DNA of 64,000 nucleotides, taken from Candidatus Thalassarchaeum betae (GTDB lineage: Archaea; Thermoplasmatota; Poseidoniia; Poseidoniales; Thalassarchaeaceae). The translations under genes and the position numbers were made by a program. The stretch is taken from contig PSPG01000001.1 of NCBI GenBank assembly GCA_003193925.1, positions 1 to 64,000 on the forward strand. The letters are read 5' to 3'. This document shows, piece by piece, positions 4,322 through 15,595 of the stretch (within the stretch, counting starts at the first letter, position 1; each line of letters opens with the position of its first letter). The notes under the pieces are model-generated. The model was not told where the DNA came from. It searched no databases and worked only from the letters and a program-made list of their open reading frames with translations.

Positions 4322-5602
4322 TTAATCTAGAACTGAGTTCACGAACCATTCCGGGTCGAACTTGAGCAGGTCGTCGTAGCCTTGTCCGACGCCGGCCAGC
4401 ACTATCGGTCGGCCGGTCGCATGTGCTATGGACAGGGCCGCACCGCCCTTGGCATCGGTGTCGAGTTTACAAAGCGCGGCACCGTCGAAACTGAGCATGC
4501 GCTGGAACTCGATTGCCTGGGTGACGGCGTCGTTGCCCGCCAGCGCATCGGCCACGAAAATCACCAGATGGGGTTGTGTGACCCTGTGCACCTTGCGCAG
4601 CTCCTCCATCAGGTTGGTCTTGTTCTGCATCCGGCCTGCCGTGTCTATAATCACGACATCCTCGCCCCGGGCTTTGGCGCTTTCCACGGCATCCCTGGCG
4701 ATGGCAGCAGAGTCGCCGCCCCGCTGGCTGCGTACGCAGCGAACCCCGAGTCGCTCCGCATGGGCCGCTAGCTGGTCGATTGCCCCCGCGCGGAAGGTGT
4801 CAGCGGCGGCCAAGACCACCGAGCGGCCCTGCTGTGTGAGCCTATGGGCTATCTTGGCGCACGTCGTGGTCTTGCCGGTGCCATTGACCCCGACCATCAT
4901 TATCCCAACGGGGGTCTCGGCGTCGATGAACGAGTTAACGGTCTTGTCGAAGTCCCAGTAGCCGGCTTCCAAGAGTCTCAGAAGTGCGTTCCTGAGCGCC
5001 TCCTCGACGACGCCCTCGAGTTTCATCCGAGTTGATATCCTAGTTCCGATCAGAGTTGCTTTCAGAGTTCGGGATAACTCCTCGACGGCGCTCTGCGCCA
5101 TATCAGCCGACAGCATCTCCACCTCGAGTTCCTCGATAATCGCGTCCAGCTTCCGGCTTCCTGTGATTACGCGCCCGCCGATCGGGGAAGCGGAATCGCC
5201 GAAATCGATCTCGAACTTCGCTGGCCCGGAGGCGATGAGTCTCTGCCCGGTGGTGCTCTCCATCCTATCCTTAGGGGGTCCTTCGCCCTTCTTCACGGGC
5301 TTCGCTGCCTTCTCCACAGAGGCTGCCCTCTTCGCTTTCTTACGCTCCTTGCGCTCCAGAGGCTTAGCGAATGGGTCCTCTGCTGGCTGTTCGTCGAAAT
5401 CGTCCCATTGCCCCCCTGCGTCTGCTGATGGTTCAGCCAATTGCGGAGCTGGTGGAGCGGATTTCGAATGTTCGAGAGAGTCGATGAGCTCCTTCCTCTG
5501 CTCCAGTGCCTGCTCGGCCTCCTCGGAATCATCCTCGGCGGTAATCTCCTCTTTGTCGGCGCTCTTACTGAAGCGTTTCTTGAAGCGGTCGAACAGGCCC
5601 AT
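4322..5602 (-). CDS. ftsY: Signal recognition particle receptor FtsY
   Basis: SRP GTPase that docks the SRP-ribosome complex at the membrane. 426 residues. Residues 1-150 form a charged, low-complexity acidic/basic A region; residues 150-225 are the helical N domain. The G domain shows GVNGTGKTTT (238-247), DTFRAGAIDQL (268-278), DTAGR (320-324), KLDTDAKGG (379-387) and GVGQGYDDL (404-412), all in the expected order. The FtsY rather than Ffh identity is supported by the absence of a methionine-rich M domain and the presence of the acidic N-terminal extension. It follows prefoldin alpha by 9 bases, a gene order conserved in many archaea, and is probably cotranscribed with it and with the downstream receiver-like gene. 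Confidence 0.96.
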   Translation of the reverse strand: MGLFDRFKKRFSKSADKEEITAEDDSEEAEQALEQRKELIDSLEHSKSAPPAPQLAEPSADAGGQWDDFDEQPAEDPFAKPLERKERKKAKRAASVEKAAKPVKKGEGPPKDRMESTTGQRLIASGPAKFEIDFGDSASPIGGRVITGSRKLDAIIEELEVEMLSADMAQSAVEELSRTLKATLIGTRISTRMKLEGVVEEALRNALLRLLEAGYWDFDKTVNSFIDAETPVGIMMVGVNGTGKTTTCAKIAHRLTQQGRSVVLAAADTFRAGAIDQLAAHAERLGVRCVRSQRGGDSAAIARDAVESAKARGEDVVIIDTAGRMQNKTNLMEELRKVHRVTQPHLVIFVADALAGNDAVTQAIEFQRMLSFDGAALCKLDTDAKGGAALSIAHATGRPIVLAGVGQGYDDLLKFDPEWFVNSVLD

Positions 5603-5611
5603 GCGTAACCC

Positions 5612-6130
5612 TCAGTCGTCGAGCGTCAGCTCGGTGCCGCGCTTGCGCTTCCTCCTTCGCGGGGCGGCCTTCTCCTCAGCAGCCTTCGTGGGTGTCCCTT
5701 CTCTGGGTGCCTCGCCCTGAATCTGCTCAACGCTTTCATTGAACTGCTGAGCGAGGCCGACGGTGCTCTGCTCCAATTCGTCGAATTCGGACTTCATCCT
5801 CTCTATGACGGCAATCAGTTCCTCACTTCGCTTGGCGAGTATATCGGCAGCCTCCTTGCGCGTGCGCTCGGCTTGAATACGGCTGCCGATATCGATTACC
5901 GCGCCGGCGTCCGCAGGAATGTCAGCGATAATCTGGATGCCGGAGCCCAATGGTATCATGGCGCCCTCTGCGCCATCCTCGGGTATGGCGAGGAGAGCCT
6001 CTATGGCTTGCATCTGCTCGATTCGGATGGCCTCGAGCTGGCGAATCTGCTGCTCGATGACCTGCATGCGCTCGCGGTTGATCTCGATGAGCTGCGCGAT
6101 GCGCTGAAACTCCGCTCTGTCGACCGTCAT
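5612..6130 (-). CDS. pfdA: Prefoldin alpha subunit
   Basis: Subunit of the hexameric chaperone prefoldin, which hands unfolded proteins to the thermosome. 172 residues from the ATG beginning MTVDRAEF; the frame is open 19 codons further but that part overlaps the end of the upstream gene. Two long coiled-coil helices (about 5-50 and 90-140) flank a glycine-containing beta hairpin region with MIPLGSGI and VIDIGS, the typical prefoldin alpha layout. A highly basic/acidic tail follows (PRRRKRKRG near the end), longer than in most archaeal homologues. Immediately upstream of ftsY as in many euryarchaea. Role from family; tail function unknown. Confidence 0.88.
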   Translation of the reverse strand: MTVDRAEFQRIAQLIEINRERMQVIEQQIRQLEAIRIEQMQAIEALLAIPEDGAEGAMIPLGSGIQIIADIPADAGAVIDIGSRIQAERTRKEAADILAKRSEELIAVIERMKSEFDELEQSTVGLAQQFNESVEQIQGEAPREGTPTKAAEEKAAPRRRKRKRGTELTLDD

Positions 6131-6183
6131 CGAGCCGGGTGAAATGCCCGACCCCCATGAAGCCGTCGCAGGTTCAACCCGGC

Positions 6184-7062
6184 TCAACGATGTGAGGTCA
6201 GGTCATCGATGATGGCCTGCCTCCTGTCTGCGATGAGTGAGAGGTGACCGTGCCCCGGCTCCAACCTGGCAGTGGCCGTGGGTATGTGCTTGAGCAGCCA
6301 CTCACCATGCGCGAAGGGGACCATGAGGTCAAGATCGCCTTGCCAGACTGCGACTGGGACGGTGATTTCCGACGGTTCGAAGCCCCAGTGGTTGCAGAAC
6401 ACCATGTCATCGTCGATCCAGCCATCCCAGCCGTTGGTGAAGCAGCGGCGCATACTTCCCGCCCACATGGCTGCGAGACCCTGCTCGTTCAAGGCGAGCA
6501 CGTCGATCTCAGGGACTAATCCCCCTAAGGCCTCAGCCAATTCCTCATCGGCAATCGTCCTGTATGGCTCCGCATGCTCGTCCATCCAGCGGCGGAGCGC
6601 CTCCTCGCCCTCCAGAGCTATTCCGAACTCCTCGACGTTCTCGGGGCCCATACCATCGAGGAAATCGAGGTCGGGCTCGCCATAGGGTCCGACGCCAGCA
6701 AGTGATGAAACCGCCTTGCAACGCTCGGGTAGCAATGCCCCGCAGGCAAGTGCGTGAGGGCCGCCGCCAGACCAGCCGAGAGAGACGAACTCGGGGATGC
6801 CCAGAGCGTCGAGCACGTCCTCGACGTCCTCGGCCACGCTTGCGACCCTCCGGCCTTCCAGCCGGTCAGACAGACCGTAGCCGGGTCGAGAGATAGCCAC
6901 CAGTCTCAGATTGTTGCTCAGCGCGTCCTCATGCCAGTCAGACCAGATGGTGGCATCACTGGGGGTCCCGTGGTGACAGACCAGACCGAAAGAGGAGTCG
7001 TCGTCACCTGCGAGAAGGACGTCGAGTGTCCTTCCGTCACGGGCTTTGAGCAAGCGGAGCAT
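6184..7062 (-). CDS. Alpha/beta hydrolase
   Basis: 292 residues with the alpha/beta hydrolase fold. An oxyanion-hole motif HHGTPSD is at about 30-36, the nucleophile elbow is GWSGGG near residue 95, the acid is in WQGDLDLMVPF (about 241-251), and the catalytic histidine is in EPGHGHLSL (about 267-275). The full Ser-Asp-His set is present, so it should be active. The fold hydrolyses esters, lactones or related bonds; no residue here indicates the substrate. It sits between the APS kinase fusion and prefoldin alpha on the same strand. No signal peptide is visible, so it is probably cytoplasmic. Confidence 0.85.
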   Translation of the reverse strand: MLRLLKARDGRTLDVLLAGDDDSSFGLVCHHGTPSDATIWSDWHEDALSNNLRLVAISRPGYGLSDRLEGRRVASVAEDVEDVLDALGIPEFVSLGWSGGGPHALACGALLPERCKAVSSLAGVGPYGEPDLDFLDGMGPENVEEFGIALEGEEALRRWMDEHAEPYRTIADEELAEALGGLVPEIDVLALNEQGLAAMWAGSMRRCFTNGWDGWIDDDMVFCNHWGFEPSEITVPVAVWQGDLDLMVPFAHGEWLLKHIPTATARLEPGHGHLSLIADRRQAIIDDLTSHR

Positions 7063-7102: not shown

Positions 7103-7987
7103 TTACTCGTCGTCCCAGATGCCTTCCTGGATCATGAACTCCATGACTTTGGCGGAGACGTTGGCATGGTTGCCGCCACGCACCCCGGTTGCTGAGACTG
7201 AGAAGAGTTCTGAGGGGATGTCATCGGCCTCTCGGACTTGGTAGCCGACCTTGCGACCGTATGAGATGGCCTCGATGTCGGGCATGATCAATGTCTCGAC
7301 GTCTTCTCCTGCGTATCGGTGCTCAATCATCCGCTTGCGCACGTCTGCTGAGAAGGGGTCCGCCTCGGTGATTGGTGTGTCCCTGATTCCGATTACGACC
7401 CTACTGCCCTGGTCGAGTTCCCTCTGGATCAGCCACTCGTGGCCGAGGTGCAGCGGCTGCCAGCGGCCCGGCAGCAGGACGGCTTTGGGCTTCTCAAAGA
7501 GATGTGCCAACTGGTCGACGAGTTGGTCGACGCTCTTGCCCGCCTCTCCACTCGAGTCCAGAGAGATGTGAGCGCACTTCGGCTCATCGAACGGATCGGA
7601 GATGCCGGTGAAGTTGGATATCTCCCCGGAGCGTGCCTTAGCGTACAGTCCCTTGGCGTCGCGCTTCTCGCAGACCTCAAGAGAGGTTGAAATGTGCACC
7701 ATGATGGTGTTGTCAGGGAGAATCTCGAGAATCTTCTCGCGGACGTTCTCGTAGGGGGTGATGAACGAGCACAGGACATGGGTGTGTTTGGATATCATCT
7801 TGGCCATCCGAGCTATCCCGAGAAGGTGGCGCTCGCGCCCTTCGTGGCTGAAGTCCTTGTTCGAGAAGAAGTCGCGGATTGTGTCGCCGTCTAGGACCTC
7901 GCACCCGTAACGCTCTGCTGCTGCTATGGCTATGGACGTCTTCCCGGCTCCAGAGAGGCCCGTGAACCAGATTATCCTGTTAGCCAT
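7103..7987 (-). CDS. Adenylylsulfate kinase-nucleotidyltransferase fusion
   Basis: 294 residues with two catalytic modules. Residues 1-165 are APS-kinase-like: Walker A GLSGAGKT (10-17), LDGD (32-35), SFITPY (74-79), EVCEKRDAKGLYAKAR (about 104-119) and NFTGISDPFDEP (125-136), which are the substrate-binding motifs of CysC. Residues 168-294 form a HxGH-type nucleotidyltransferase: GRWQPLHLGH (174-183) and SATGVR (265-270), the equivalent of the ISSTxIR phosphate-binding motif. The second module is far too short for an ATP sulfurylase and looks closer to NMN- or cytidylyl-transferases. A simple PAPS-synthetase role is therefore not established; a nucleotide-activated metabolite in surface glycan or cofactor chemistry is possible. 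In the LX-to-ftsY gene run. Confidence 0.85.
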   Translation of the reverse strand: MANRIIWFTGLSGAGKTSIAIAAAERYGCEVLDGDTIRDFFSNKDFSHEGRERHLLGIARMAKMISKHTHVLCSFITPYENVREKILEILPDNTIMVHISTSLEVCEKRDAKGLYAKARSGEISNFTGISDPFDEPKCAHISLDSSGEAGKSVDQLVDQLAHLFEKPKAVLLPGRWQPLHLGHEWLIQRELDQGSRVVIGIRDTPITEADPFSADVRKRMIEHRYAGEDVETLIMPDIEAISYGRKVGYQVREADDIPSELFSVSATGVRGGNHANVSAKVMEFMIQEGIWDDE

Positions 7988-8076: not shown

Positions 8077-8628
8077 TCAGTAGTCCTGCAATTCATCGGC
8101 AGCCGCCGAGAGCCTGTCCCGGGAGTCGCTGCCGAGATGGAAGAGGAACGGGTCCTCCTCGCCCATGATGTTCTTCAAGGAGGATATCGTCCGTGCCCAG
8201 ATCTCCTGCTCGGAGTTCCACACCAACCAGCGCTCGATGAAATCACAGTGACGTTGGATCTCCTCGTCTTCAGGAGCCATTCGTCGGAGGATGGCGTTGG
8301 TCTGGGCAAGGAGTATCCCAAAAGGTGCATTGAGTTTGTAGGTGGTGAACGGGTTGCGCTCCTGTACGATAGTTAGGTGCTCGCGCCACAGGCCTAGGGT
8401 GGCGTCGTAAACCCTGCCAATCAGTAGCACAATCAGAATGACTGAGGCACCGATGCCGAATAGCCCCCAGTAGGTCATTTTGATACCGGCCATCGTCGAT
8501 TCGGCCTCGAACCTCCAACTGACGTAGGGCCAGATCAGTAGCGTCAGGGTGCTGGCCCAGAAGCCCATCGAGATGAGGGTCTGGCTCTGTTGAACCCGCC
8601 AGTACTGACGCATGAACCACTTCTTCAT
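8077..8628 (-). CDS. Membrane protein of unknown function, two helices
   Basis: 183 residues; no family recognised. Two hydrophobic segments lie at about 17-37 (SMGFWASTLTLLIWPYVSW) and 50-70 (YWGLFGIGASVILIVLLIG), separated by a short loop. The rest (about 75-183) is a soluble, helix-rich, tryptophan- and glutamate-containing cytoplasmic domain ending AAADELQDY. The N-terminus MKKWFMRQYWR is basic, consistent with an inside position. It follows LX and precedes the APS kinase fusion on the same strand. Nothing in the sequence points to a reaction. Confidence 0.7.
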   Translation of the reverse strand: MKKWFMRQYWRVQQSQTLISMGFWASTLTLLIWPYVSWRFEAESTMAGIKMTYWGLFGIGASVILIVLLIGRVYDATLGLWREHLTIVQERNPFTTYKLNAPFGILLAQTNAILRRMAPEDEEIQRHCDFIERWLVWNSEQEIWARTISSLKNIMGEEDPFLFHLGSDSRDRLSAAADELQDY

Positions 8629-14477: not shown

Positions 14478-15020
14478 GTGTCTGACGAGTTGCTCCAGAG
14501 CCTGAGGAACACCGTACGCACGGTGCCGGACTTCCCGATTGAAGGGATCATGTTCCGCGACATCACCCCCGTGCTTGGTGACCCGGGCCTCCTGTCACGC
14601 GTCACCAATCGTTTCGCTGAAGATATGGGGGGCCTGGGCTGGCGACCCGACGCGGTCGTCGGTCCAGAGGCCCGTGGTTTCATCTTCGGCCCCCTCCTCG
14701 CGGCCAAACTGGGAGTCGGTTTCATCCCGGTCCGCAGATCCGGCAAACTCCCAGCCCCGACCAGGCAGGTCGAGTACAATCTCGAATACGGCACCAACAC
14801 TCTCGAGATGCATGACGACGCAATATCACCCGGACAGAGGATCGTGGTGATTGACGATTTGCTGGCCACCGGGGGGACCGCGGCTGCATGCGTCGAATTG
14901 ATCGAGGCAGCCGGAGCTGAGGTGATGGGCTCGCTGTTCGTGATAGAGTTGATTGGATTGGGGGGTAGGGAGCGCTTGGCCCCCACGCCCGTCCACGCAC
15001 TGGTCGAGTTCCCAGCATGA
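14478..15020 (+). CDS. apt: Adenine phosphoribosyltransferase
   Basis: 180 residues from GTG. Salvages adenine plus PRPP to AMP. The FPIEGIMFRDITPVL region, GPEARGFIFG, and the PRPP-binding motif IVVIDDLLATGGTAAA (about 120-135) are all typical of bacterial/eukaryotic-type Apt. Length matches the family (170-180). It forms a salvage unit with the upstream permease. The stop overlaps the first possible codons of the next open frame, whose real start is further downstream. Confidence 0.95.
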   Translation: MSDELLQSLRNTVRTVPDFPIEGIMFRDITPVLGDPGLLSRVTNRFAEDMGGLGWRPDAVVGPEARGFIFGPLLAAKLGVGFIPVRRSGKLPAPTRQVEYNLEYGTNTLEMHDDAISPGQRIVVIDDLLATGGTAAACVELIEAAGAEVMGSLFVIELIGLGGRERLAPTPVHALVEFPA

Positions 15021-15079
15021 AAACTCCAACAACATCCCGATTTCTTCAAAGGGACTCGGTGTTTGCATGGGGCGTTAGC

Positions 15080-15595
15080 ATGGCGCGCAAACCCCCTCCC
15101 CCACCTCCTCCACCTCCAAAGGGGAAGAAGGGGCCCCCACCTCCCCCACCCCCACCTCCGAAGGGGAAGAAGGGGCCCCCACCTCCTCCCAAGGCGAAGA
15201 AATCACCACCACCAAAGCCGAAGAAGACCGCCCCAGCTCCACCTAAAGGGAGGAAGCCGCGCCGAAGGAAGGGTAAACGGCCCGCAGCCAAGGGAGCGAA
15301 GACGACTCAGAAAGGCAAACCTAGGAAGAGGGGTCGGAGGATTCGAATCAAGTTGGGCCTCAGGCAGTCCAGAATCAGAGAGCAGAAGGATTCCTATGAG
15401 GACCAGATGGGATGGACAGTCACACAGCAGGTTCTCGAGCCCTTCGAGGACCTCGAGTCCCAAGAATCCGACATCCTAACCCACCAGTGCTCGATGTGCG
15501 GCTCGATAATGCAGATTCCCCACCCCAAGCGCGAGCGATACAAGGTCATCTGCGCCTACTCTGAGTGCGGCCACGAGGACATGATAGGATTCTGA
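15080..15595 (+). CDS. Proline/lysine-rich protein with C-terminal zinc ribbon
   Basis: 171 residues from ATG (in-frame ATG at 15017 overlaps apt and is less likely). Residues 5-57 are repeated runs of six to nine prolines separated by KGKKG or KAKK blocks. Residues 58-100 are strongly basic (KGRKPRRRKGKRP and similar). The C-terminal 40 residues form a zinc ribbon with Cys137, Cys140, Cys158 and Cys163 (CSMC and CAYSEC). The basic linker suggests nucleic acid or ribosome contact, and the ribbon a structural zinc. No family is recognised. It follows apt and converges with the TauE/SafE gene with no spacing. Confidence 0.75.
   Translation: MARKPPPPPPPPPKGKKGPPPPPPPPPKGKKGPPPPPKAKKSPPPKPKKTAPAPPKGRKPRRRKGKRPAAKGAKTTQKGKPRKRGRRIRIKLGLRQSRIREQKDSYEDQMGWTVTQQVLEPFEDLESQESDILTHQCSMCGSIMQIPHPKRERYKVICAYSECGHEDMIGF
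15092..15187 (+). repeat. Proline-codon low-complexity repeat
   Basis: C-rich tract encoding (P)n-KGKKG twice in near-identical units (ccaaaggggaagaag / ccgaaggggaagaag blocks), followed by a third diverged unit. Synonymous differences between units show it is translated and not a recent perfect slippage product. Confidence 0.7.

Follow-up and report, generated by a model that had tools for sequence, protein, structure and literature searches.

Which reaction might be carried out by a single polypeptide in which an APS kinase is followed by a very small HxGH nucleotidyltransferase domain? The question is raised by a gene of Candidatus Thalassarchaeum betae found in a stretch of 64,000 nucleotides (the window), which lies on contig C7 of a 1.48-Mb genome that is 92% complete ( Table 1 ). 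The initial annotation had drawn the limits of the reading frame exactly, the strand now being given as minus, and had recognized two modules with intact catalytic motifs, all of which are present. It had also judged that the C-terminal module falls short of the size of a classical ATP sulfurylase, in agreement with its length of about 125-130 residues and with the lack of a PF01747 match; being that short, it sets the protein apart from a normal PAPS synthase in architecture. As argued here, the fusion is likely a bifunctional PAPS synthase of compact build, in which an NMNAT-like domain would take the part of the ATP sulfurylase. Three contexts lend genomic support, namely Thalassarchaea, haloarchaeal plasmids and viruses, the first two most strongly.

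Table 1. Features of the fusion gene and its surroundings in the window.
Feature	Position	Strand	Basis or remark
Fusion gene, APS kinase + mini HxGH nucleotidyltransferase	7103..7987	minus	294 aa, ATG start; ORF list, orthologues
APS kinase domain, residues 5-160	7508..7975	minus	PF01583; match to 2ofw
P-loop GLSGAGKT, residues 10-17	7937..7960	minus	G10, L11, G13, G15, K16 invariant, n=49 sequences
HxGH nucleotidyltransferase domain, residues 165-294, proposed sulfate adenylyltransferase	7106..7495	minus	PF01467, AF2, fold
GRWQPLHLGH motif, residues 174-183, presumed ATP site	7439..7468	minus	G174, R175, Q177, P178, H180, G182, H183 invariant, n=49
Arg202 (IGIRD), candidate sulfate contact	7382..7384	minus	invariant in fusion; absent from two aligned NMNATs
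GRKVGY motif, residues 244-249, candidate sulfate contact	7241..7258	minus	G244, R245, V247, G248, Y249 invariant; not seen in two aligned NMNATs
SATGVR motif, residues 265-270	7178..7195	minus	S265, T267, R270 invariant, n=49
Alpha/beta hydrolase between fusion and prefoldin	6184..7062	minus	present in 6/48 related loci
Prefoldin alpha, right-hand syntenic anchor	5612..6187	minus	TIGR00293 over cut-off
FtsY, right-hand syntenic anchor	4322..5602	minus	TIGR00064 over cut-off
Membrane-like protein, left-hand anchor	8077..8628	minus	no family match

The reading frame is a real gene and not a chance one, given that it has orthologues at many loci and that both of its domains are under purifying selection. 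A scan of genome contigs recovered orthologues at 48 public loci, with 74-87% identity over the best segment, all labelled as Euryarchaeota, Marine Group II, Poseidoniales or Thalassarchaeum/Thalassarchaeaceae. The fusion occurs in 17 of 60 genomes (the window's own included), all of them from the window's family, where it is found in 17/37 genomes and in 10/13 of the same genus; one of these copies is cut by a contig end and several of the family genomes are incomplete. Among 292 genomes drawn from across the phylum, the protein was matched over its full length outside the family in G058, which carries a divergent form, and in G223, both from the sister family; the remaining extra-family matches cover the kinase part only.

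Against the closest locus, the pN/pS values of the window copy are 0.066/0.529 for the kinase and 0.064/0.552 for the nucleotidyltransferase. Values for the nucleotidyltransferase are below those of the kinase in 21/21 pairs among seven related loci and in six of the seven comparisons with the window copy, the more distant pairs being near saturation at silent sites. Catalytic residues from the motifs named in the initial annotation are kept in homologues, several P-loop residues, the HxGH histidines and Arg270 being invariant among 49 archaeal and viral sequences. Invariance extends over G10, G13, G15 and K16 in the kinase, and over GRxQPxHxGH, Arg202, Pro211, Pro236, GRxVGY and SxTxxR in the C-terminal domain. 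Of the 48 archaeal loci, 18 entered alignment A1 and 14 alignment A2; for the 80 viral loci the corresponding numbers were 30 and 24. This pattern bears on the idea of a C-terminal domain that has no catalytic activity and serves solely to regulate the kinase, for instance as an ATP sensor. The small size of the domain and the degenerate motifs of one plasmid relative from Microvirga could be invoked in its favour. Such a role is scarcely plausible in view of the invariant histidines and Arg270 and of the pN/pS comparisons (silent sites near saturation), and it would leave the source of APS unexplained.

The N-terminal half is an APS kinase by profile and by fold. PF01583 matches residues 5-143 with 135 bits against a Pfam cut-off of 21.1, while the NCBIfam model TIGR00455 scores 135.3 bits, slightly below its cut-off of 138.7. 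The full-length structural model aligns with the APS kinase domain of human PAPSS1 (2ofw) over 164 residues with Z 24.7, rmsd 1.5 and 40% identity. All five archaeal sequences listed from the alignment retain the lid GLYAKARSGEIxNFTG. In the viral form this lid is shortened and the canonical APS-kinase lid is missing.

The C-terminal half belongs to the HxGH superfamily, as indicated by PF01467 (26.3 bits against a cut-off of 21, residues 171-228) together with the invariance of H180, G182 and H183. The 10 Pfam matches of the fusion protein at E up to 1 do not include PF01747, and among the NCBIfam and PHROG models a single one, PHROG 10255 (a phage 'kinase'), spans the two domains, matching residues 5-270. 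Modelled alone with AlphaFold2, the 130-residue module gave a confident fold (mean pLDDT 90.8). Foldseek placed NMN adenylyltransferases at the top rank, with NMNAT and PPAT ranking higher than the ATP sulfurylase 8a8g (rank 38, E 0.01, TM 0.41, 75 alignment columns). VIA-align returned Z 12-13 for phosphopantetheine adenylyltransferases and NMNATs, the two being tied; the absence of an ATP sulfurylase among the 50 VIA-align matches listed excludes nothing. Both by sequence and by fold, the domain lies nearer to NMNAT/PPAT than to ATP sulfurylase.

The domain departs from NMNATs in several respects. Its stretch from PDI to GY is about 20 residues shorter than in two aligned NMNAT-like proteins, and Arg202 and GRxVGY are absent from these two. 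An unrooted tree, rebuilt after removal of the PPAT and RibL-like rows whose long branches spoiled its first version, places the fusion domains and nine NMNAT-like rows on opposite sides of a branch with support of 100/99; as to a single clade of the haloarchaeal and Thalassarchaeal forms, it gives no decision (p-AU 0.439). The fold rankings, the shorter stretch, the distinctive arginine and GRxVGY motif and the split in the tree lead to the conclusion that the module is a reshaped NMNAT-like domain.

NMNATs are nonetheless the best named sequence relatives, and the domain could in principle be an NMN adenylyltransferase or work in NAD, CoA or FAD synthesis. This is extremely unlikely, considering the shortened PDI-GY stretch, the model scores and the gene content of the genome. 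Against the archaeal NMNAT models the fusion scores 23.5 bits for TIGR01527 (cut-off 181.2) and 34.7 for PRK01153 (cut-off 127), compared with 67.4 (nearly the whole TIGR01527 model) and 73 bits for a separate NMNAT-like gene of the window genome, also below the cut-offs. Each of 40 genomes examined has at least two PF01467 genes other than the fusion. In the window genome the fusion is the fourth such gene, the others being NMNAT-like, RibL-like and a PPAT fused to DUF359, of which only the PPAT label is over a curated cut-off. For the NMNAT-like gene the NMNAT models score best, below their cut-offs; the RibL label is suggested by adjacent riboflavin genes, the best NCBIfam matches being a generic domain and rfaE_dom_II. 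With separate NMNAT-like and PPAT genes at hand, NMN and phosphopantetheine are unlikely substrates and the fusion is probably unneeded for NAD or CoA. An analogue of CoA synthase (PPAT plus a 3'-OH kinase) was rejected given the PPAT-DUF359 gene, and NAD or FAD synthesis given the separate NMNAT-like and RibL-like genes. The PPAT gene (L111:1402-2553, contig C21 of the window genome), whose DUF359 part is GTP-dependent dephospho-CoA kinase-like, constitutes an archaeal CoA-synthase fusion.

The genomes that carry the fusion have an APS kinase and no recognized enzyme that would supply its APS: PF01747 ATP sulfurylase was found in 0/60 genomes of relatives, and strong matches to PF01507, the family covering CysD, occur in 5/60 genomes (2/37 in the window's family), none of which carries the fusion. 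Strong denotes E below 1e-50, the remaining matches being weak (E 3.5e-7 or worse). These absences are not proof, as most of the genomes are incomplete. The PF01507 matches of fusion genomes are weak at most and the one checked is a GMP synthase, so that there is no sign of a PAPS reductase in them. Sulfate assimilation was rejected as the role of the fusion, strong PF01507 matches being limited to 5/60 genomes and the one examined being a CysD by NCBIfam.

Membrane protein, CysQ, fusion, prefoldin and FtsY follow each other on a single strand in 26 of the 48 fusion loci, and in five more with the fusion flipped; at the other 17, one or more of the five genes is missing from the available stretch or the order differs. 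The related genome G017 has GGGPS, membrane protein, CysQ, CysD, CysN-CysC, prefoldin and FtsY in succession, with CysD and CysN-CysC over their NCBIfam cut-offs. One gene, the fusion, thus takes the place of two genes in a relative, within the same slot between CysQ and prefoldin/FtsY. Neither CysD nor CysNC was found in any of the 48 fusion loci (0/48), where CysQ is present in 41 and a sulfotransferase in 22. CysQ clears PAP, the by-product of sulfation; that of locus L018 scores 227.9 bits with TIGR01331 (cut-off 228.8). This CysQ (L018:11176-12354) bears an additional N-terminal part of about 130 residues (GGLLGELRYV...), which is matched alone by small frames in several other genomes.

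In relatives, cysQ, and in many loci also a sulfotransferase, lies between the left-hand membrane-like protein and the fusion. At the window locus neither adjoins the fusion, which is flanked by the membrane protein and the alpha/beta hydrolase; the sulfotransferase of the window genome is on another contig, C10, and CysQ was not found in this genome, nor in its relative G005. Elsewhere in the window, an ORF on the plus strand (15017-15595) encodes extended repeats of proline, lysine and glycine (PPPPPPKGKKG) and a short four-cysteine end.

An alternative reading keeps a true APS kinase serving sulfotransferases, lets the C-terminal domain adenylylate or cytidylylate something else and takes APS from an unrecognized enzyme encoded elsewhere. 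The greater closeness of the domain to NMNAT/PPAT than to ATP sulfurylase and the incompleteness of most genomes speak for it. However, with PF01747 in 0/60 genomes and no strong CysD match in any fusion genome, a separate APS-making enzyme would need to be hiding in all 17 fusion genomes. Also, the fusion occupies the slot of cysD plus cysNC in a relative and recurs together with a sulfotransferase on haloarchaeal plasmids. This reading is therefore considered unlikely.

As candidate users of PAPS, sulfotransferases (PF13469 or PF00685) were found in 16/17 fusion genomes, 3/5 CysD genomes, G058 and 6/37 of the rest. The association between fusion and sulfotransferase over the 60 genomes has a Fisher p of 4.7e-07, a value that is optimistic given the relatedness of the genomes. 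No sulfotransferase was found in one fusion genome (G021) and in two of the five CysD genomes; each of the six genomes with a sulfotransferase and neither fusion nor CysD has at least one congener with the fusion. CysQ of the type seen at fusion loci occurs in 14/17 fusion, 2/5 CysD and 0/38 other genomes, as counted with a single query and leaving out G020, G021, G022, G030 and G031, which match its extra N-terminal part only.

The second context is provided by plasmids of haloarchaea, whose proteins are annotated as cysC, are 37-39% identical to that of the window and have the same motifs in the three that were translated. A sulfotransferase lies upstream of the fusion in 8/8 annotated plasmid records, and tblastn found one in a ninth, unannotated record. 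A YqcI/YcgG gene follows the fusion in seven of the eight annotated plasmids, being located on the opposite side in Halocatena. Outside the haloarchaea, a Microvirga lotononidis plasmid (L378:6001-6774) encodes a fusion with degenerate-looking nucleotidyltransferase motifs (HESH, SPTAVQ) near a sulfotransferase-like ORF, and Rhizobium and Rhodoferax plasmids carry kinase-only relatives close to sulfotransferases.

The third context is viral. With the window protein as query no relative was recovered from the viral collection, whereas the divergent G058 form matched 266 viral stretches, the best 80 of which were analysed. A sulfotransferase was detected in 42 of these best 80 loci and not found in the other 38, compared with 0/70 ribonucleotide-reductase and 0/53 UDP-galactopyranose-mutase control loci without the fusion. 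Detection relied on a custom model built from 33 archaeal and 14 viral sequences, those with masked letters being omitted; since its viral training sequences came from the scanned sets, a cross-check with PF13469 was applied. This was over its cut-off in 42/42 positive viral records and in 0/50 of the control records (50 of 123), with one weak match below cut-off among the latter. Run on whole records for 17 of the 38 sulfotransferase-negative viral loci and two phages, it gave one match over cut-off, in one of the 17 records, and one weak match. Fusion-bearing loci within the control sets have a sulfotransferase in 0/9 cases (ribonucleotide-reductase set) and 8/21 cases (mutase set).

Several of the viral sulfotransferases are about 590 aa long, with the Pfam match within the first third. 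Also, a protein cluster (median member 436 aa) occurs at most four genes from the fusion in 37 of the viral loci L142-L221. The G058 copy itself (locus L114, contig C19) lies with a glycan cluster and a sulfotransferase in AT-rich DNA of 23-28% GC, as opposed to 42% in another stretch of the genome, for which reason the contig is probably misbinned.

The viral loci also offer an argument for a kinase and nucleotidyltransferase acting in series on a non-sulfate metabolite, such as a nucleotide-linked glycan precursor, the reading closest to the unassigned pathway favoured by the initial annotation. The Campylobacter cytidine diphosphoramidate kinase route is a precedent. Many viral copies have no sulfotransferase nearby, the canonical APS-kinase lid is missing from the viral kinase, and the neighbours of the fusion at sulfotransferase-free loci include glycan, nucleotide and virion genes (Pfam covering 61 of the 112 neighbour clusters). 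In contrast, the archaeal form retains the lid GLYAKARSGEI and NFTG and is found with sulfotransferases and CysQ, and the 42 sulfotransferase-bearing loci among the best 80 of 266 are themselves viral. Such serial action on a non-sulfate metabolite is very unlikely. The neighbourhood survey for sulfotransferases advised at the outset found them in archaeal (22/48), annotated plasmid (8/8) and viral (42/80, best 80 of 266) loci; these, CysQ and the exchange of the fusion for cysD-cysNC point to plain PAPS synthesis, carried out by an unusual domain, rather than to the metabolite first proposed. For the viral form the PAPS-synthase reading is less certain.

Both modules of a bifunctional PAPS synthase are found on a single chain, with sulfotransferases as putative users, and a reaction sequence may be suggested. 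The C-terminal NMNAT-like HxGH domain would bind ATP via GRWQPxHxGH and SATGVR, while Arg202 and Arg245, the latter within GRxVGY, would probably hold the sulfate. Attack of sulfate on the alpha-phosphate of ATP would yield APS and pyrophosphate, and the N-terminal domain would then phosphorylate the 3'-OH of APS to give PAPS, drawing the unfavourable first step forward. PAPS would supply the sulfotransferases, and the leftover PAP would be cleared by CysQ where present.

To our knowledge, two unrelated solutions to sulfate activation are known, Sat and CysDN. Given that the fusion has no Sat-family match and no CysD alongside it in the genomes searched, it would represent, if active, a new variant of sulfate-activating enzyme. 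It is likely a third kind of sulfate adenylyltransferase, a NMNAT-like domain of about 110-125 residues fused to an APS kinase, providing a one-gene PAPS supply for sulfotransferases across Thalassarchaea, haloarchaeal plasmids and many viruses. If so, a single enzyme of about 250-290 aa would suffice for PAPS production, some of the 'cysC' annotations in these groups would stand for complete PAPS synthases, and the supply of PAPS to sulfotransferases in marine archaea and viruses would be explained. Genome-based predictions of sulfation would change accordingly, since 'cysC' organisms scored as lacking ATP sulfurylase could make PAPS. A search of open-access literature by titles and abstract openings found no description of this architecture. 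Orellana and others (PMC6864105) assign cysD, cysN and cysC to MGIIb and link PAPS to sulfotransferases. In the genomes searched here, the usual APS kinase of the window's family, which presumably corresponds to the MGIIb of that paper, is the fusion (17/37), a strong CysD being rare (2/37).

Among known systems, the fusion shares its fold and the GRxQPxHxGH motif with the archaeal NMN adenylyltransferase NadM, and differs from it by Arg202, GRxVGY, the preceding stretch about 20 residues shorter and the 100/99 split in the tree. It also resembles a two-domain phage 'kinase' (PHROG 10255; Stenotrophomonas, Xanthomonas and Clavibacter phages), matched over residues 5-270; five phage records, which presumably belong to this group, match at least 80% of the fusion protein. 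In the two phages aligned, the kinase lid is shorter, and a PF13469 scan of the whole record gave no match. With CysD plus CysN-CysC (NodP/NodQ type) the fusion would share the overall reaction, and it occupies the same chromosomal position, flanked by CysQ and prefoldin/FtsY. It contains neither the PP-loop CysD nor the GTPase CysN, two GTP-coupled proteins without relationship to the HxGH domain. In the metazoan PAPSS1/2, an N-terminal APS kinase precedes a C-terminal nucleotidyltransferase of the HxGH superfamily, the ATP sulfurylase half consisting of a large PF01747 domain and a PUA-like part. Although the corresponding half of the fusion is NMNAT-like, of about 125 residues and without a PF01747 match, the plan is the same: one chain, with the APS kinase first and an HxGH-superfamily nucleotidyltransferase second.
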